Assembly: GCA_030584065.1 (NCBI GenBank)
Contig: CP129489.1
Span: 3,143,497-3,207,496, forward strand
Direction: 5' to 3'
DNA from: Flavobacteriales bacterium
Lineage (GTDB): Bacteria > Bacteroidota > Bacteroidia > Flavobacteriales_F > PHOS-HE28
Length of the DNA stretch: 64,000 nt
The notes beneath the pieces were generated by a model. That model did not search any database. It was given only the letters and a program-made list of their open reading frames with translations, and was not told the DNA's origin. The position numbers were made by a program, and so were the translations under genes. Shown piece after piece: positions 37,704 to 61,160 of this stretch. How positions within the stretch are numbered: position 1 is the first letter of the stretch; every line of letters begins with the position of its first letter.

Positions 37704-37710
37704 TACTTTG
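37704..37710 (+). promoter_or_regulatory. -7-like box TACTTTG of the small T9SS gene
   Basis: TACTTTG ends five bases before the ATG at 37716, a near-leaderless arrangement. Confidence 0.4.
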
Positions 37711-37715
37711 GCCCT

Positions 37716-38183
37716 ATGCTGCGCGCCGGCCTGCTGTGGACCTTCATATCGATTGCCTGTCTGGTGAGGGCCCAGCAAGCGATCGCACCGGCCAGTGCCG
37801 AAAGCGCGGGTGGCGGCGGAACGGTGAGCTGGACCGTGGGCCAGGTGGCCTATGAAGCCACGCTGGCGCCCGGTGGCAGCGTGCAACGCGGCGTGCAGCA
37901 GCCTTACGAATGGCTGGTGACCAGCGCACCGGAAGCCCAGGAGCCCCACGTGAACGTGTGGCCCAACCCGGCCGGGGAAGCGGTGCAGGTCAGTTGGGAT
38001 GCTCCCCTGCCCGGACCAGCGCACTACGCCTTGTACAGCGCCTCGGGTGCCTTGGTGCAGCAGGGCGCGGTGACCGGCACCTCGTTGACGGTCCCTCTGG
38101 CGGCACAGGCCTCCGGCACCTACCTCTTGCTCATCACCGCTCAAGGCGGCCCCTACAACCGCATCACCCTCCAGAAACGATGA
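37716..38183 (+). CDS. Small T9SS sorting-domain protein (module 1, carrier)
   Basis: A 155-residue secreted protein with a signal peptide (MLRAGLLWTFISIACLVRAQ). A short conserved segment GGGGTVSWTVGQVAYEA ... RGVQQPYEW follows, then a T9SS type A domain (VNVWPNPAGEAVQVSW ... GTYLLLITAQGG). The same layout (SYTIGEPVIATAG ... TQGFHQPW, then NVYPNP) occurs in the 157-residue protein at 60687-61160. In both loci the gene lies immediately upstream of a protein beginning QAPQR[MI][SN]YQA. Here the stop overlaps that start (ATGA). Function unknown. Confidence 0.82.
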   Translation: MLRAGLLWTFISIACLVRAQQAIAPASAESAGGGGTVSWTVGQVAYEATLAPGGSVQRGVQQPYEWLVTSAPEAQEPHVNVWPNPAGEAVQVSWDAPLPGPAHYALYSASGALVQQGAVTGTSLTVPLAAQASGTYLLLITAQGGPYNRITLQKR

Positions 38184-39130
38184 GAACGCACCTCCTCCTT
38201 TCAGCGGCGACCCTGACGCTCGCCCTGCACCTGAACGCGCAAGCCCCCCAGCGCATGAGCTACCAGGCCGTGGTGCGCGACGAGGCCAATGCCCTGGTGA
38301 CCAACGCCACGGTGGGCATGCGGCTCAGCATCCTGCAGGGCAGTGCCACAGGCACCGCGGTGTATGTGGAGACCCACAGCGCCCCCACCAACGCCAACGG
38401 ACTGGTGAGCGTGGAGGTGGGCGGCGGCGCGGTGCAGAGCGGCAGCATGGAGGCCATCGATTGGGCCAGCGGCCCCTACTTCCTGCGCAGCGAGACCGAC
38501 CCCAACGGCGGTGGCAACTACACCATCGCAGGCACCAGCCAATTGCTGAGCGTGCCCTATGCCTTGTATGCCGCCAATAGCGAGCCCGGCCCTCCCGGTC
38601 CGCAAGGCATGCCCGGTGCCGATGGCTGCGCACCCACCAACACGGACAGCCTCATCGTGCTCTACAACAGCAGCACGGCCTATGGCTATTACCAGACCCC
38701 CGAGGGGCAGGGCACCTGGCTCACCCAACAACTGGGCAACACCAATCACCTCGGCATTGCCTCCAAGCGCGCCGTGGTGCTCTACAACAGCAGCAACGCC
38801 TATGCCTTTTACCTGGACAACAGCGGCGTGGGGCACTGGAGCGTGCAGGCACTGGGCAACACCAACCACATCGGCGTGGCCACGGACCGTTCCATCGTGC
38901 TCTACAACAACAGCAACGCCTACGCCTTCCATGTGGATGGCGGCGGGGCAGGCACCTGGACCGTGCAACCACTGGGCAGCACCAACCACAGCAACGTGGC
39001 CCACGGCGACAAGATCGTGGTGTGGAACTTCAGCACTGCCTACGCCTTTGCAGTGGATGAGAGTGGCGCCGGCGCCTGGACCACACAGGCCCTGGGCAAT
39101 ACCAACCACAACGTGATCACCACCCGGTGA
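38180..39130 (+). CDS. Fibre-like protein with four 40-residue repeats (module 1)
   Basis: A 316-residue secreted protein. The signal peptide (MRTHLLLSAATLTLALHLNA) is followed by an N-terminal domain (~20-130) that is homologous to that of the 994-residue fibre protein at 57699-60683. Shared features are AQAPQRMSYQAVVRD, TNANGLVSVEVGGG and LLSVPYALYAANS. A short collagen-like GPPGPQGMPGADG follows. Residues ~155-316 are four tandem ~40-residue repeats of the form xxVLYNSSNAYAF...W.VQ.LGNTNH. No S74 domain or sorting domain is present. It probably forms an extracellular fibre or sheath; the role is unknown. Confidence 0.78.
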   Translation: MRTHLLLSAATLTLALHLNAQAPQRMSYQAVVRDEANALVTNATVGMRLSILQGSATGTAVYVETHSAPTNANGLVSVEVGGGAVQSGSMEAIDWASGPYFLRSETDPNGGGNYTIAGTSQLLSVPYALYAANSEPGPPGPQGMPGADGCAPTNTDSLIVLYNSSTAYGYYQTPEGQGTWLTQQLGNTNHLGIASKRAVVLYNSSNAYAFYLDNSGVGHWSVQALGNTNHIGVATDRSIVLYNNSNAYAFHVDGGGAGTWTVQPLGSTNHSNVAHGDKIVVWNFSTAYAFAVDESGAGAWTTQALGNTNHNVITTR

Positions 39131-53444: not shown

Positions 53445-56400
53445 TCAGCGCTTGATCACGCGTTCGGCGGCCAGTGCCTCGCCTCCATCGTTCAGGATCA
53501 GCAGGATATAGGCACCTTGGGGCAAGGAGGCCAGGGAGATGGGCGTTGGCGCTTCGGCGAGGGACAACGAACCACTGCGCACTGTGCGGCCCTGATCATC
53601 GATCACCGAGTACCGAGCACCATCTTCGCTCATGGCAGCCGCGTCGACCCGGATGAGGTCCTCGGTTGGATTGGGGAAGATCCGTATCGTGTTCGAGATA
53701 CACGAGACGCTGGTCGTTGGGAGCGTGGTGCTCTGGCTGTCCTGGTCGACCTGCAGAAGGCGGTAGTAGAGCACGGCCGCTGGTGTGCGTGCGGGATCAT
53801 GGTGGGCATAGTCCACCTGTTGATGGCTGTGGCCTGCTGCTGTCACCTGGCCGATATCCGTCCAATGGGAACCATCCGCACTGCGTTGCACCACGAAGTG
53901 GGAGCTGTTCGCTTCACTGGCGGTGGCCCACGCCAATTGCACCGTACCATTCGAACAGGTCGCGTCGAGGCGCAATAGCTCCACCGGCAGCGGCACGTTG
54001 TTGTGTGTGCCCAGACCGTCGAGGTAGCCGGGCATATAGCGCCATGGGCCGAAGACCTGGCCTGTTATGGCCGTGGCAGGATCGAAGCGCACACGGGCGC
54101 GCACTTTGGTGGCGGTGATCCCCGTTCCGCCGCCGGGTTTGTCGATCAGGTTCTTCAGCTCCACGCCGGCCACAGCACCGGGGGTGAAGGTGGCCTGCTC
54201 GGCCGTGAGCGCGGTGCTGTTGTTCACAAGGCCATTGCTGCCGGTGCTGAAGGCGGCTCCCTGGATCCGGGTCTCCCAAACGAGTTTCGTTCTCGTGCGG
54301 CCCAGGAAGGGGCGTGCGAACAGCCCGGCCCCGAATTGTGGGATGGGGATGTTCGCTGCAGTGATCGGTGTGGTAAGGTCCGTCTCATAGAGCCTGAAGT
54401 GGCCTCGGGCAAGGTTTGTGCTGGTATTGCCGAAGTGGACGAATGCGAGGCTCGGCCCGTACTGTCCGATCACCACATCGCTGTACCCGTCCCCGTTCAC
54501 ATCGCCCGCCCCAGCCGCACTGTGCATGCTGGAGCCATAGATGGTCAAGTCCGGCAAGTTGGTGGGCGCGCCGAAAATGGGGCCGCCCAGACCCCATTGC
54601 CCGCCGAAGTAGATCCTGGCTCCCAATGCGCACTCAGTGACCACCACATCGCTGTAGCCATCGGCGTTCAGATCGCCCGCGCTGGCCACCGTGGCCCCAT
54701 AGAAACCACCACCGGAGATGCTTGAACTCCAAGAGGGGGATGCGGAAGCCCCGGCGGGTCCGCCATGATGGATGTGCGCCTGGAAGCCCATCCGCGCCAT
54801 GATCACATCGCTGTAGCCATCCCCGTTCACATCACCGGCGCCACTGGCACAGGCGCCGCTGTGGGGGTTCGAGCCGAATCGTTGCCCGGAGACCGTATGG
54901 TCGTAGATGGACGCGGGCATTGCGTGCAAGCCACCTGGTCCGCCATGGAAGATCACCACCCGCCCACGGTCCGAGTTGTAGCCGCCTGCACCGATGATCA
55001 CATCGCTGTAGCCGTCGCCGTTCACGTCCCCGGCCCCATCCACGCCTTCTCCGTAGTAGCTGTTCGGCAGGTGCGGTGCGTCGAACGGCGCTGAGATCCA
55101 ATCGGGTGTGACGCTAAGCCCTGTGGGGCTTCCGTGGTACACCGTTACACGGCCTGCGCCGGTATTGTGGTCCGGTTGCCCGATGATGACATCGGCATAG
55201 CCGTCGGCATTCACATCGCCCGCACAGCTCACACTGAACCCGAAGCGGGTGTTCACCGTGCCTGAAACCGTCCAGTTCGGCGTGGTGGGAAGGCCAGCGG
55301 AAGAGCCATGGTAAACATGCACTATATCTCCTGCCTCAGTGCCGATGATGATGTCGCTGAACCCGTCGCCGTTCACATCGCCTGCGCCGGATACGCAGTA
55401 CCCGAAGCCGGCGATCGCCATCTGATAGTAAACACGGTCAGGCACGAACGAGGGGCCCACCGGAGACCCATAATGGACATATGCTCTATTTCCCCCCGGT
55501 GCACCGATGATGACATCGCTGTATCCATCGCCATTGACATCCCCGGCACTGGCCACGGTCCTGCCGTAGAATGATCCGGCAGACCCTGCGAGCGTGCGGT
55601 CGGCCGTGCTGCTGATGGACGCGGCAGCACCGGGATAACACCGTACGCGTCCCTCGTTGGTGAGGGTGCCATCGTGGAATTGGGCACCAATGATCACATC
55701 ACTGAGGCCGTCGCCGTTGAAGTCACCTGCACTGGCCACGCTGCGTCCGAAGCGGGCATTGGGCTGTGTGCTGAGGACCGTGGTGGGTGCGGTGCTGATC
55801 CCCGCCGCGATGCCGTTGAACAGGTCGATCCTGCCCCCGCTGGCGTGCAGCGGCGAGCCGGAGATCACGTCGGCGTAACCATCGCCGTTCACATCACCCG
55901 CACAAGCCACGCTGGTCCCGCGCTGTTCGCCAGCATTATTGGACTCAAGGCTGTGATGCACCGCTGTCAGACCGGAGGCGCCGCCACGGGCGATCTGAAT
56001 ACGGCCTTCGTCCGTTTGACCGCCATCCCAAAGCGGTGTACCCACCACCACATCGCTGTACCCATCGTTGTCCACATCGCCAGCGCTGGCCACGCTGGTG
56101 CCGGCATTGGCGCTGGCCTGGTTGCTTTCCACGGTCCAGTGCGCGGCCGCCAGCAGACCGGTGGCGCTGCCCAGGTGTACCACCGCTCGTCCTTCATCGG
56201 TCTGGCCGTTGTCGTAGAGCGGTGCGCCGTAGATGATGTCGCTGTACCCATCACCGTTCACATCACCGGCGGATGCCACGCTGGCTCCGGCGTTCGCACC
56301 ATCCTGGTTGCCTTCGGTGATCCAGGTGACCGAGCTGGGCAGTCCGGTAGCGCCGCCGTGGAAGACGAAGACCCTGCCTTCGTTGGTGTTGCCCGAGTCG

Positions 56401-57626
56401 AAGAACGGTGCTCCGAAGATGATGTCGCTGTACCCATCGCCGTTCACATCGCCGGCGCATGCCACGCTGCGCCCCAGATAGGATGTCGCCTGATCGCGCT
56501 CGTAAGTCCAGTTCGGCGTGGCCGATAGCCCACTGCTGCTGCCATGGAACACATAAACACGTCCTTCATCGGTCTGGCCGTTGTCCAGGTAGGGCGCGCC
56601 CACGATCACATCGCTGTATCCGTCGCCGTTCACATCACCGGCCGTGGATACGCTATACCCGAACTGCGCCGATGCGGAATTGGATTCGTAGGTCCAGCTG
56701 GGGGTTGTGGATGGCCCCGAAGCGCTGCCATGGTACACCACCACGCGGCCTTCATTGGTCTGGCCATTGTCGTAGAGGTGCTGCCCCACGATGATGTCGC
56801 TGTATCCGTCGCCGTTCACATCACCGGCGGAGGCTACGCTCCAGCCGAACTCGCTGTTGGACTGTCCACCGTCCATGGTCCACACCGGTGTGGTCACCAG
56901 TGGATCCACGGTCACGGGGTAGTGTGCCAACGCATCATCCACGGTGATGCGGATGGTATCACCGCTAAGGGTCATCTGGGCGGGCAACGTATCGCCATCG
57001 GCGTCCCAAACGCACAGTTCGCTGTAGTGAAGGACCTTGACCGATCGGGCGTTGGTGAACGAGATCGAGTTCTGCCCATCATCCATGGGGTGAAGGCCAC
57101 CGGCCACGGACAGGAACAGTTCCACAGGTCCGGTGCCGTGCAGCCGTTCATGCAGGATGAAATTCTGGCGAATGCCTTCGGCGGTGTTCACATGCTCCAC
57201 ATCGAAAGGGCCGTGCCGTGCCAGCGTGCGCTGTTCCGATCGCTCCACCACGGGCGTGGTCACCGGAAGGAACCGATCATCGGAGCGACCGATGCGATGC
57301 AGCAGGATGGACACGGACCATGGCGCCTCCCATTCATCTGTGGGCGAAAGGAGCATGCCGTCGTTCCGAATGGAGGCCTTTAGCCCTTGCGGATCGGTCC
57401 ACTCCACATGCTTGGGCGAGGACCCACTGACCGACCGTTCCTCCAGGGCTGGCAACGCGGGCAAGTCGGGCTGGGCTGCCAGGTGTTCCGATAGGCCTTG
57501 TTGAAGCGGATCCGGTTCCTCGGTCACGCTACGCACGGCCGGAGGTGCCGTTCTGGCGCACGCAGTCAAGGCCAACAACAGCCCTGTGGACCAAAGCAAC
57601 GAAGTCGAAGATGATCGCGGGCGCAT
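53445..57626 (-). CDS. FG-GAP repeat protein with T9SS type A domain
   Basis: A 1393-residue surface protein. The N-terminus has a lipobox-like LLLALTACA. A proline-rich and beta-rich region covers ~25-290, and fourteen FG-GAP repeats follow, each with the Ca-binding loop DVNGDGYSD (~300-1080), which should form two seven-bladed beta-propellers. A linker and a T9SS type A domain end the chain (RIFPNPTEDLIRVDA ... GAYILLILNDGG). FG-GAP propellers of this sort bind calcium and often mediate adhesion. The combination of a lipobox and a T9SS domain is unusual. Confidence 0.88.
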   Translation of the reverse strand: MRPRSSSTSLLWSTGLLLALTACARTAPPAVRSVTEEPDPLQQGLSEHLAAQPDLPALPALEERSVSGSSPKHVEWTDPQGLKASIRNDGMLLSPTDEWEAPWSVSILLHRIGRSDDRFLPVTTPVVERSEQRTLARHGPFDVEHVNTAEGIRQNFILHERLHGTGPVELFLSVAGGLHPMDDGQNSISFTNARSVKVLHYSELCVWDADGDTLPAQMTLSGDTIRITVDDALAHYPVTVDPLVTTPVWTMDGGQSNSEFGWSVASAGDVNGDGYSDIIVGQHLYDNGQTNEGRVVVYHGSASGPSTTPSWTYESNSASAQFGYSVSTAGDVNGDGYSDVIVGAPYLDNGQTDEGRVYVFHGSSSGLSATPNWTYERDQATSYLGRSVACAGDVNGDGYSDIIFGAPFFDSGNTNEGRVFVFHGGATGLPSSVTWITEGNQDGANAGASVASAGDVNGDGYSDIIYGAPLYDNGQTDEGRAVVHLGSATGLLAAAHWTVESNQASANAGTSVASAGDVDNDGYSDVVVGTPLWDGGQTDEGRIQIARGGASGLTAVHHSLESNNAGEQRGTSVACAGDVNGDGYADVISGSPLHASGGRIDLFNGIAAGISTAPTTVLSTQPNARFGRSVASAGDFNGDGLSDVIIGAQFHDGTLTNEGRVRCYPGAAASISSTADRTLAGSAGSFYGRTVASAGDVNGDGYSDVIIGAPGGNRAYVHYGSPVGPSFVPDRVYYQMAIAGFGYCVSGAGDVNGDGFSDIIIGTEAGDIVHVYHGSSAGLPTTPNWTVSGTVNTRFGFSVSCAGDVNADGYADVIIGQPDHNTGAGRVTVYHGSPTGLSVTPDWISAPFDAPHLPNSYYGEGVDGAGDVNGDGYSDVIIGAGGYNSDRGRVVIFHGGPGGLHAMPASIYDHTVSGQRFGSNPHSGACASGAGDVNGDGYSDVIMARMGFQAHIHHGGPAGASASPSWSSSISGGGFYGATVASAGDLNADGYSDVVVTECALGARIYFGGQWGLGGPIFGAPTNLPDLTIYGSSMHSAAGAGDVNGDGYSDVVIGQYGPSLAFVHFGNTSTNLARGHFRLYETDLTTPITAANIPIPQFGAGLFARPFLGRTRTKLVWETRIQGAAFSTGSNGLVNNSTALTAEQATFTPGAVAGVELKNLIDKPGGGTGITATKVRARVRFDPATAITGQVFGPWRYMPGYLDGLGTHNNVPLPVELLRLDATCSNGTVQLAWATASEANSSHFVVQRSADGSHWTDIGQVTAAGHSHQQVDYAHHDPARTPAAVLYYRLLQVDQDSQSTTLPTTSVSCISNTIRIFPNPTEDLIRVDAAAMSEDGARYSVIDDQGRTVRSGSLSLAEAPTPISLASLPQGAYILLILNDGGEALAAERVIKR

Positions 57627-57698: not shown

Positions 57699-60683
57699 TT
57701 AACGTCGCTCCAGCTCTGCGATGCGCTTCTCCAGCCGTTCAATGATCGCTTGCTGCTCCTGCACCGCTTTCACCAGGGGAACTACGAATTCGGCGTAGCG
57801 GAGGCCGAGCATGGCGTCGCCGTCGCTCATCTTGTCCACCCCGCTGAAGTCGAAGCCCACGGCTTGTGCGGCAGCATCCACCTCTTGGGCGATGAAGCCG
57901 GTTTGGCGCACGGCGGCTTTCTCCGCTCGGGCGGCGATAGTCTCCGGACTTGGCAGCACGGTCTCCACCTTGCCGTTGGCATCCACTCGGCGGTCTTCAC
58001 CGAGGTGTTCTGCCAGCGCCTGCACATTCACGTTGTAGGTCACAGGTCGCAGGCGCAGGATGAAGTCGAGGCCCTTCACATCGGCGAGCACATTGCTCTT
58101 GAAACGGCCATCGCTCGGCAGGGTGGTCCAGCTCGCGTAGCCGCCGATGCTGGTGACGGCGGTGTTGCCCACGCGCGCTGAGTTGCTTGCAGTGGGCCGT
58201 GCTTGGTAGCCAAGTCCTGTGGCATTGCTCAGTCCTGCAACGGTCGGATAAGCATTGTTGCCCACATAAGAGCTGTTCGTCATGGTAAGGCCACTGCCCG
58301 CGTAAGATCCCAGGGCGGTATTCCCGCTCTGTGTTGCCACGCTGCTCAATGCGTTGATCCCAATACCCGTATTGGAGCCGCCGCTGGTGTTCAGGCGCAA
58401 GGCATTGCGGCCCACCGCCACGTTGGCATCGCCGCTTACGTTGTTGCGTAGGGCTTCAAAGCCCACGGCCACGTTGCGCGTACCCGTTGTGTTCGCATAC
58501 AGCGCCTTGCTTCCGACCGCGGTCTGCTCCACTGCTTCTGCAGGGCCGTCGATCGGGTCGTAGGTGGCGCCGATGCCGTTATTGAGCAGTGCACTATCGC
58601 CAACAGCAACGCAATTCCAGCGTGCTACGGCGTTGCGCATGGCACCTGCTCCAACCGCCACGTTGGAGAATCCATCCACGTTGCTGCGTAGCGCGTTGCT
58701 GCCGAGTGCCGTGTTGTTTGCACCGGTGATGTTGCCCTCTTGGGCGAATGCACCCATGGCCGTATTCCCTGATGATGTGGTATTGGCCATCAGCGTGTTC
58801 TTGCCTACGGCGGTGTTGTTGCTTCCGCTGTTCGCCATCAGCGCGCGGTGACCGAAGGATGTTGAAGTGCCGCTGGGCGTCACGAAGCCGCCGCGTTCAT
58901 TGTTCACGCGGAACTCGAGCTGTGCATTGTCCGTGTTACCAATGAAGTTGGTGCCCAACACCATGCCCGTGTTGCCCGTGATGCCCCATGCGTTCGAGCT
59001 GCCAGCAGGTCCAGCAGGGCCTTGCGGACCAACAGGCCCGATGAGCGCAACACCGGCAGGCCAAGCGCCCGCTGCCTTCGGGCCGAAGAGTGTGCTGGTG
59101 GTGGTGTTGAGGTAGAAGTCCCCATTGGAACCAACAGCGCTGGCCGGGTTCGTCGTACCATTCAGCACAGTCTTTCCATCCGTTCCGTTGGAACCATTAG
59201 TACCCGGAGTTCCTTGTGGGCCTGTTGCACCAGTAGGGCCTGCAACACCTTGTGGGCCTTGTGCTCCGGTCGCGCCTGTGGCACCCGGAGGGCCTTGTGC
59301 TCCCGTGGCACCAGCAGCACCCTGTGGACCTTGAGGGCCGGTAGCACCCGGAGTTCCAATAGGACCTTGCGGCCCTTGTGGACCCACAAGAGAAGTTCCG
59401 ACGCCCCAGTTGCCAGCCGTCTTCGGGCCGTAGATCATAGTGCTCGCGGTGTTGATGTAGAAGTCGCCGTTGGCACCGATGGCACTGGCTGGTGCGGTTG
59501 TTCCGTTGAGCACGGTGCGGCCGTCAGCGCCGGCGGCCCCGGTCGCACCCGTAGCACCTTGTGGACCGGTAGCCCCGATGGGCCCTGTCGGTCCTGTTGC
59601 TCCGGCCGGGCCTGTATTTCCCGTAACCCCCTGTGGACCTTGAGGACCAGTAGCACCCGCAGTACCAGTAGGACCTTGCGGCCCCTGTGGACCCACAAGC
59701 GATGTTCCGACGCCCCAGCCACCAGCGGTCTTCGGGCCGTAGATCATAGTGCTCGTGGTATTGATGTAGAAGTCGCCGATGGCACCGAGGGCACTGGCCG
59801 GTACCGTCGTTCCATTGAGCACGGTGCGGCCGTCAGCACCCGCGGCCCCGGTCGCACCTGTGGCGCCGGTCGCCCCTTGCTGGCCCGCTGGCCCTGTGGC
59901 GCCCGTGGCACCGGTAGCACCGGCTGGCCCCGTGGCTCCTTGTGGTCCCGCAGGTCCTTGCGGCCCGGTCGGCCCTTGAATGGAGCCGACATTCTCCCAT
60001 GTATTGGTGTTGTTGCTCCACACATACAGGCTGCCGTTCACCAGGTAGGCATCACCGGGGTCGCCCGTACCAGGTAGTTGGTTCACGTTGGTGAGCGAGC
60101 CGAGGATGGTTACCCCGGTCCCATCCGCGCCTGCGGGTCCTTGCGGCCCTGCAGGTCCTTGGGCACCTTGAGGCCCCTGTGGTCCTTGCGCACCTGTGGC
60201 GCCTGTGGGTCCAGTAGCGCCGGCGGGCCCGGTAGCGCCTGTTGCTCCGGCGACCCCCTGCGGACCTGGAGGGCCTGCAGGACCTATCGGCCCGGGTGTG
60301 TTGCTGGTCTCTGCGAACAAGGCGTAGGGCACGCTCATCAGTTGTGTGGTGCCCATCGGTGTGCCGTTCACGCTAGTGCGGACGAACCAGGGTCCATTGC
60401 TCCAATCGATACTGGCGAACGAGCCACTGACCACCGTGCCACCACCGATCGCCACGTTGGCCAGGCCGAAGGTGTTGGTGGTCACCGCATGGTTCTCGTT
60501 GTACACCACGGTGCCGCTACTGCTGCCCTGCAGCACGGCGATGCCCAGCGTCGCGGCGGTGTTCGCTTGAATGGTACCACTTGCATCGCGCAGGATCGCT
60601 TGGTAGTTGATGCGTTGCGGTGCTTGGGCCCACATGGCCGTAGCGAGTGCGAAGGCGAAGAGGAGGGAAATAGACTTCTTCAT
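57699..60683 (-). CDS. Collagen-like fibre protein with S74 chaperone domain (module 2)
   Basis: A 994-residue secreted fibre protein. A signal peptide ([19 protein letters not shown]) and an N-terminal domain (~20-130; [16 protein letters not shown] ... [12 protein letters not shown]) are followed by collagen-like Gly-x-y repeats (~131-565), interrupted by three TVLNGT.PAS..GS.GDFY repeats. A head-like region with NTAVG/NTALG repeats (~600-850) and a C-terminal peptidase-S74 intramolecular chaperone domain (SDGRFKSNV at ~857) complete it. The S74 domain is usually cleaved off after trimerisation of the fibre. It is paired with the small T9SS protein whose gene ends three bases upstream. The N-terminal domain is shared with the protein at 38180-39130. 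Confidence 0.88.
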
Positions 60684-60686
60684 GGC

Positions 60687-61160
60687 TTAGTGGGTGATGG
60701 AGATCTTGAAGGACTTCAGGGTGGTATCGTCGTTGCCTAGCACACGCAGGATGTAACCTCCACTAGCGTAGGCTTCCATATCGAGATCGGTGATCGCGGA
60801 TGTGATGCGTCCTTCGTTCACCAAGCGTCCTGCAGCGTCGTGCAGGAAGTACTGCTGTGCGTCCGCAGCGTCTTCACATGCGATGTGCAGGGTGTGCGAT
60901 ACCGGGTTCGGGTACACGTTGATGACGCTGGTGTTCGCCGGGGTATCATGGACAGGGGTGGAGATGTCGGCCCAGGGTTGATGAAAGCCTTGGGTGAGAA
61001 CCACATTGCTGGCACCTGCCGTGGCGATCACCGGTTCCCCGATGGTGTAGGAGATACGGGTCGTGGCATTGGCATGATGACCACCACCGCCGGAGACCAC
61101 GGTCTGTGCAGTTCCGGCGATCGGAGCTGCGAGCGGAAGGAGAACGAGTAGGGATCGCAT
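60687..61160 (-). CDS. Small T9SS sorting-domain protein (module 2, carrier)
   Basis: A 157-residue secreted protein with signal peptide MRSLLVLLPLAAPIAGTAQ. The segment SGGGGHHANATTRISYTIGEP ... LTQGFHQPWA (first 20: SGGGGHHANATTRISYTIGE) leads to a T9SS type A domain (INVYPNPVSHTLHIACED ... GGYILRVLGNDD). It has the same layout as the protein at 37716-38183 and likewise sits directly upstream of a QAPQR-type fibre gene. A perfect 10-bp inverted repeat overlaps its promoter and start. Confidence 0.82.
   Translation of the reverse strand: MRSLLVLLPLAAPIAGTAQTVVSGGGGHHANATTRISYTIGEPVIATAGASNVVLTQGFHQPWADISTPVHDTPANTSVINVYPNPVSHTLHIACEDAADAQQYFLHDAAGRLVNEGRITSAITDLDMEAYASGGYILRVLGNDDTTLKSFKISITH

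Follow-up and report, generated by a model that had tools for sequence, protein, structure and literature searches.

The two pairs of neighbouring genes analysed here probably encode a two-component surface fibre similar to the MAT fibres, in which a dedicated T9SS adaptor would bind the base of the fibre and supply its export and/or its anchoring in trans. This reading, which draws on sequence comparisons, builds on the conserved pairing of both genes, on fibres devoid of a sorting domain (CTD), on the co-loss and co-divergence of the partners, on an exchange of the anchor in which the N-domain of the adaptor is kept, and on homology to the MAT fibres. The features of the two copies in the window, i.e. 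the whole stretch of 64,000 nucleotides that was analysed, are as follows.

37716..38183, plus strand: carrier 1, 155 aa, secreted
to ~37772, plus strand: signal peptide of carrier 1
37773-37922, plus strand: N-domain of carrier 1, GG..vSWTvGQ..QRGVQQPYE
37956-38156, plus strand: T9SS type A sorting domain of carrier 1
38180..39130, plus strand: fibre 1, 316 aa, secreted, without sorting domain
38240-38572, plus strand: MAT-like N-domain of fibre 1
38588-38632, plus strand: five Gly-X-Y triplets of fibre 1
38642-39127, plus strand: four repeats of ~40 aa of fibre 1
60687..61160, minus strand: carrier 2, 157 aa, secreted, with signal peptide
61106-60957, minus strand: N-domain of carrier 2, YTIGEP..TQGFHQPW
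60917-60705, minus strand: T9SS type A sorting domain of carrier 2
57699..60683, minus strand: fibre 2, 994 aa, secreted, without sorting domain
60626-60309, minus strand: MAT-like N-domain of fibre 2
60293-59169, minus strand: four Gly-X-Y blocks of fibre 2 (Collagen, 128 bits)
~58817-58296, minus strand: YadA-head-like repeats of fibre 2
58115-57858, minus strand: S74 intramolecular-chaperone domain of fibre 2 (Peptidase_S74, 35.3 bits, cut-off 22)
58115-58098, minus strand: SDxxxK motif (SDGRFK) in the S74 domain of fibre 2

In both copies the carrier gene precedes the fibre gene (37716-39130 and 61160-57699), exactly where an earlier, sequence-only reading of this DNA had placed them. The junctions that it described were confirmed as well: carrier 1 and fibre 1 overlap by ATGA, and the TAA stop codon of carrier 2 is followed by 3 bp and then by fibre 2. 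The small partners, predicted to be T9SS proteins of ~155 residues, both score above the cut-off of 23 of the NCBIfam model TIGR04183 (28.1 bits for carrier 1 and 24.4 bits for carrier 2). With the Pfam model PF18962, carrier 2 reaches 34.1 bits, and carrier 1 stays below the cut-off of 27 with 24.7 bits. The type A sorting domain was matched by all 19 carriers of alignment A6 at E<=0.01. It is preceded by an N-domain of ~50 residues with the consensus GG...SyTiGq......qGvqQPye, for which no significant Pfam match was obtained. The mean pairwise identity of the carriers is 32% in this N-part as compared to 28% in the CTD. In the AF2 model of carrier 1 the CTD is well predicted and the first 42 residues are unstructured when modelled alone (pLDDT 26-38). 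Folding of the conserved N-part upon binding of the fibre would explain this behaviour; the thin alignment of 19 sequences would explain it too. A PDB fold search with the carrier gave weak matches only, to the Ig-like CTD, whose model resembles the solved CTD of Tannerella mirolase (8qb1, prob 1.00 but E 0.01).

The fibre proteins share an N-domain of ~110 residues, which begins with QAPQR after the signal peptide and has no significant Pfam match, and differ in their remaining parts. The fibre ends had been described correctly, with four repeats of ~40 aa in fibre 1 and an S74 domain containing the SDxxxK motif in fibre 2. The label "collagen-like" fits the four Gly-X-Y blocks of fibre 2 but is weak for fibre 1, since the latter contains only five Gly-X-Y triplets. 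According to the AF2 model of fibre 1 (mean pLDDT 83), the N-domain is all-beta with a pLDDT of about 90, the Gly-X-Y stretch is disordered, and the repeats form four four-stranded blades. The matches of fibre 1 in a PDB search are beta-propellers on the tip, and as the best of them (VIA) reaches a Z of 8.8 at an rmsd of 5.5, the predicted tip can be called "propeller-like" at most. On the same strand, 72 bp 3' of fibre 2, the window contains a gene (53445-57626, minus strand) that may form one operon with fibre 2; it encodes an FG-GAP-like repeat protein of 1393 aa whose C-terminus is T9SS-like.

Fibres of this type could also be tail fibres of a phage or of a contractile injection system accompanied by an accessory gene, and the Collagen and S74 parts of fibre 2 indeed match many PHROG tail-fibre families. 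However, the fibre N-domain matches 0 of 50,697 phage records, fibre 1 has no PHROG match, signal peptides are present throughout, and the chromosomal neighbours are an rpoN-like gene, a GreA-like gene and genes for T9SS proteins. A phage origin, which we consider extremely improbable, was rejected on the basis of the phage records and of the chromosomal neighbours.

The N-domain of the fibres is remotely homologous to that of the Bdellovibrio MAT fibres. NF053851, the model of the MAT N-domain, was matched by every one of the 18 sequences in the fibre N-domain alignment (best E 4e-10), with 32.9 bits (E 5e-8) for fibre 1, 25.1 bits for fibre 2 and 29.9 bits for the isolated domain. As these scores lie below the curated cut-off of 60 bits, we refer to the window fibres as MAT-like and not as members of the MAT family. 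Both kinds of fibre have the same architecture, in which a Sec signal peptide is followed by a conserved, beta-rich N-domain of ~110-130 aa, a shaft and exchangeable tips. The tips are S74 in fibre 2, the 40-aa repeats in fibre 1, and S74, FISUMP and others in relatives. The N-domain of the MAT fibres presumably binds a surface element that is still to be identified according to the authors (PMC10769870). The presence of a T9SS protein encoded next door sets the window-type fibres apart from the MAT fibres, and the T9SS is not mentioned in the text of that paper.

The genome from which the window derives is a single contig of 3.92 Mb (99.97% complete), and it contains the T9SS translocon protein SprA (2569 bits). 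The two copies of the module were found to be real, but they are part of a more widespread family and do not make up a duplication restricted to the window: a third copy lies at ~1.411 Mb, 1.77 Mb from the window, with an S74 tip on the fibre and the carrier upstream. Identity between the three copies is 47-67% for the fibre N-domains and 22-34% for the carriers; the relatedness of the N-domains between copies was supported by profile comparison. The genome contains three copies of the fibre N-domain and exactly three of the carrier N-domain, all of the latter immediately upstream of a fibre; matches to the T9SS CTD part of the carrier profile, by contrast, number about 126. Fibres and N-domain carriers are thus paired one to one in this genome.

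Furthermore, the pairing is conserved across the Bacteroidota. A scan of GTDB contigs with three fibre N-domains yielded 28 loci from Flavobacteriales, Chitinophagaceae and Bacteroidales, and most of them have the carrier directly upstream of the fibre. The fibre precedes the carrier in Taibaiella and Edaphocola, where the carrier also contains an inserted stretch of ~100 aa. An example with public names is the pair WP_264793647 (T9SS protein) and WP_264793648 (hypothetical), encoded with a 3-bp gap on a plasmid of Aureispira anguillae. The genes of such pairs are ordinary in size. In a tblastn search of a remote fibre against plasmids, the matches were mostly to its phage-collar-like tip. None of about 80 fibre ORFs of this first locus set contains a sorting domain of its own, in line with the sequence-only reading, and neither do the fibres of the further loci from the genus. 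Natural fusions of carrier and fibre, as sought in a Rosetta-stone test, were absent from all loci analysed.

For a sample of the phylum, 198 Bacteroidota genomes were searched with the fibre profile A3, which had been built without reference to neighbouring genes, so that this sample is less prone to selection than the first locus set. The fibre N-domain was detected in 49 of the genomes. Among the 47 strong fibres (60 bits or more; 34 genomes, window genome excluded), 40 have a gene for a sorting-domain protein on the same strand and at most 150 bp away, 34 of these upstream and 6 downstream. As only 2.6% of the genes, counted per ~1 kb, encode a sorting domain in the same stretches, chance linkage was rejected; the nominal binomial P of about 1e-45 is too small a value due to the shared ancestry of the sampled genomes. 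The adjacency was seen in about ten GTDB families. Seven strong fibres are not adjacent to such a gene. Two of these come second in carrier-fibre-fibre arrays, and one is part of a disrupted fibre, the first fragment of which does lie beside a sorting-domain gene. For another two a carrier N-domain is located no further than 750 bp away, and the last two (L133 and L155) have no CTD gene in the locus stretch searched. Fibres with remote similarity (30-60 bits) are adjacent to a CTD gene in only 5 of 16 cases, and the N-domain can thus also be used otherwise. Neither of the two results that would have spoken against the sequence-only reading was obtained, since the neighbours are conserved phylum-wide and the N-domains are related between the copies. 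The order of the partners flips in some taxa, and the layouts of the family also include carrier-fibre-fibre arrays and swapped anchor types. At two loci (L149 and L152) two tandem fibre genes follow one carrier, which may thus serve two fibres.

Near-constant adjacency to a small protein with an export signal suggests that the carrier brings the fibre to the cell surface and keeps it attached. Alternatively, both proteins might be co-regulated but independent cargo for the same surface task, which do not bind each other and are linked by nothing but a shared promoter. Genes that overlap or are spaced by 3 bp are a usual feature of operons, and T9SS genes are common, with the 2.6% per gene given above. 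Against this, the pairing survives flips of gene order, a change of the C-terminal module, and gain and loss within the genus, and hardly any carrier with the N-domain lies apart from a fibre in the phylum sample. The carrier N-domain profile A4 had matches in 19 of the 198 genomes, and every one of these 19 contains fibres; about 28 of its 30 matches adjoin or lie close to a fibre by coordinates, although A4 may miss unlinked carriers because it was built from carriers beside fibres. We regard mere co-regulation as quite unlikely.

A signalling pair, in which the small CTD protein acts as a PorA-like secretion sensor and the fibre is its regulated cargo, has a precedent in PorA of Porphyromonas gingivalis, a small CTD protein with a signalling role. 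Nevertheless, there is one carrier per fibre locus and no recurrent regulator gene beside the pairs looked at, and this explanation appears very improbable to us.

Gain and loss of the partners were followed in the genus of the window, with 38 genomes that include many drafts. In this set the carrier N-domain is present in 30 of 31 fibre-positive and in 0 of 7 fibre-negative genomes (Fisher p 6e-7, with relatedness ignored). SprA is present in all 49 fibre genomes of the phylum sample and absent from 44 of the 198 genomes (p 5e-7), an association that is weak because a single family accounts for most of the SprA-negative genomes shown. Over 49 pairs, the Mantel correlation between the distance matrices of fibre N-domains and carriers gave an r of 0.72. 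When partners were swapped within genomes with several pairs, the mean r dropped to 0.54, and the observed value was reached in 1 of 5000 swaps. After removal of a near-identical strain it was reached in 9 of 2304 swaps for all pairs and in 97 of 2304 for multi-copy genomes only. This shows that the carrier-fibre pairs do not reassort; as linked genes can co-diverge without physical contact of their products, co-divergence alone does not prove contact between the partners. Two loci appear to hold decaying modules: the fibre gene is broken by a stop or truncated in both, and the carrier is intact in one (L154, G128:C34) and also short in the other (L164, G107:C80).

The C-terminal module of the carrier is exchanged within the family. 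At five loci (L122, L124, L125, L134 and L141) a type B sorting domain replaces the type A domain, and PorP/SprF is encoded directly downstream in all five. These loci score 48.9-78.7 bits with TIGR04131 and 162-218 bits with TIGR03519, and in two of them PorP/SprF is fused to an OmpA-like peptidoglycan-binding domain. The carrier N-domain is weakly matched in four of the five (13.7-23.6 bits) and was not recognised by profile search in the type B partner of L125. In some relatives within the genus, the carrier N-domain is attached to a module of ~250 aa without a recognised CTD, beside arrays of fibres. This module, which ends in two D-V-N-x-N-G-x-V-K-Y-A-G repeats and is matched by no Pfam or NCBIfam model, could likewise serve for sorting or for retention at the surface. 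The CTD-less carriers of L199, L200, L201, L204 and L138:3564-4454 contain AFLEGPY..TMNDALRSNGILPLSEPY and two NDRDPIL..IGG repeats. The genome of L199 and L200 (G231:C52:21000-60800), of the same genus, has 12 fibre copies, seven of which lie together with four carriers in one stretch of ~35 kb, and encodes a 1580-aa carrier with PARCEL/DUF285 repeats. On the simplest reading, the N-domain of the carrier would bind the fibre and the rest would be an exchangeable anchor or export module.

From these observations we infer binding, co-export, surface display and adhesion as follows. Carrier and fibre would both reach the periplasm by Sec, in agreement with the signal peptides visible in the sequence, and the fibre would trimerise via its shaft and, if present, the S74 chaperone, as judged from what is known of these domains. 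The conserved N-domain of the carrier may then bind the N-terminal beta-domain of the fibre, and the sorting domain of the carrier would take the complex through the T9SS translocon; less likely, the carrier would be exported first and then capture the fibre outside. At the surface the carrier would hold the base of the fibre, type A carriers by the normal PorV/PorU route and type B carriers through the PorP/SprF encoded beside them, and the variable tip would point outward as an adhesin.

Co-export of such a complex is plausible in principle, since T9SS cargo is exported in the folded state (PMC9251779) and type B cargo relies on its cognate PorP/SprF shuttle (PMC12618676, PMC9143113). That a trimer could pass through the SprA barrel is presumed here; documentation of a folded trimer passing SprA was not found in the literature searched. 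The main rival explanation is that the carrier is exported alone as a surface receptor, on which the fibre docks later after leaving the cell by another route. It accounts equally well for the pairing, the co-loss and the swap of the anchor module, and carriers with a large C-terminal module but no recognised CTD exist. It must, however, assume a second route across the outer membrane, as the fibres show a Sec signal only and no lipobox, autotransporter or sorting domain is visible in their sequence. We consider it unlikely. The small protein as an exported anchor or docking subunit, as proposed in the sequence-only reading, is the best-supported interpretation of these comparisons.

Like other type A cargo (TIGR04183/PF18962), the window carriers combine a Sec signal peptide with a type A sorting domain at the C-terminus, but their passenger comprises only ~50 residues, is poorly structured alone and is tied to a CTD-less neighbour. 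The five loci with type B carriers resemble known type B substrates in having PorP/SprF directly after the carrier; in the known type B systems, however, the adhesin is on the CTD protein itself, whereas the fibre is a separate chain encoded upstream here. A functional parallel may be the Tat "hitchhiker" co-translocation (Rodrigue et al. 1999, as cited in PMC9251779), in which a protein without a signal crosses the membrane in a folded complex with a partner that has one; membrane, machinery and proteins differ, and the parallel is an analogy only. A description of the carrier-fibre layout was not found in the open-licence papers that were searched.

Slightly more doubtful than true, in our estimate, is the wider reading that the T9SS exports CTD-less trimeric fibres in trans by means of a family of adaptors, whose N-domain of ~50 residues would recognise the base of MAT-type fibres and whose anchors (type A, type B with PorP/SprF, or CTD-less) would be interchangeable. 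If true, it would define a general two-component system for the display of fibres and the first known partner of a MAT-type N-domain. The carrier would be a specific candidate for the type of surface element to which MAT-type fibre bases bind, and the pair might serve as a natural plug-in for the display of interchangeable adhesin tips. Lists of T9SS cargo normally rely on the sorting domain, and a piggyback adaptor would thus also point to a class of surface proteins overlooked in them.

Finally, a TACTTTG box that resembles the -7 element of Bacteroidota is located right before the start codon of carrier 1 (window 37704-37710). Right before the start codon of carrier 2 (window 61209-61160), TACTTCG lies inside a perfect GGTACTTCGC/GCGAAGTACC inverted repeat.
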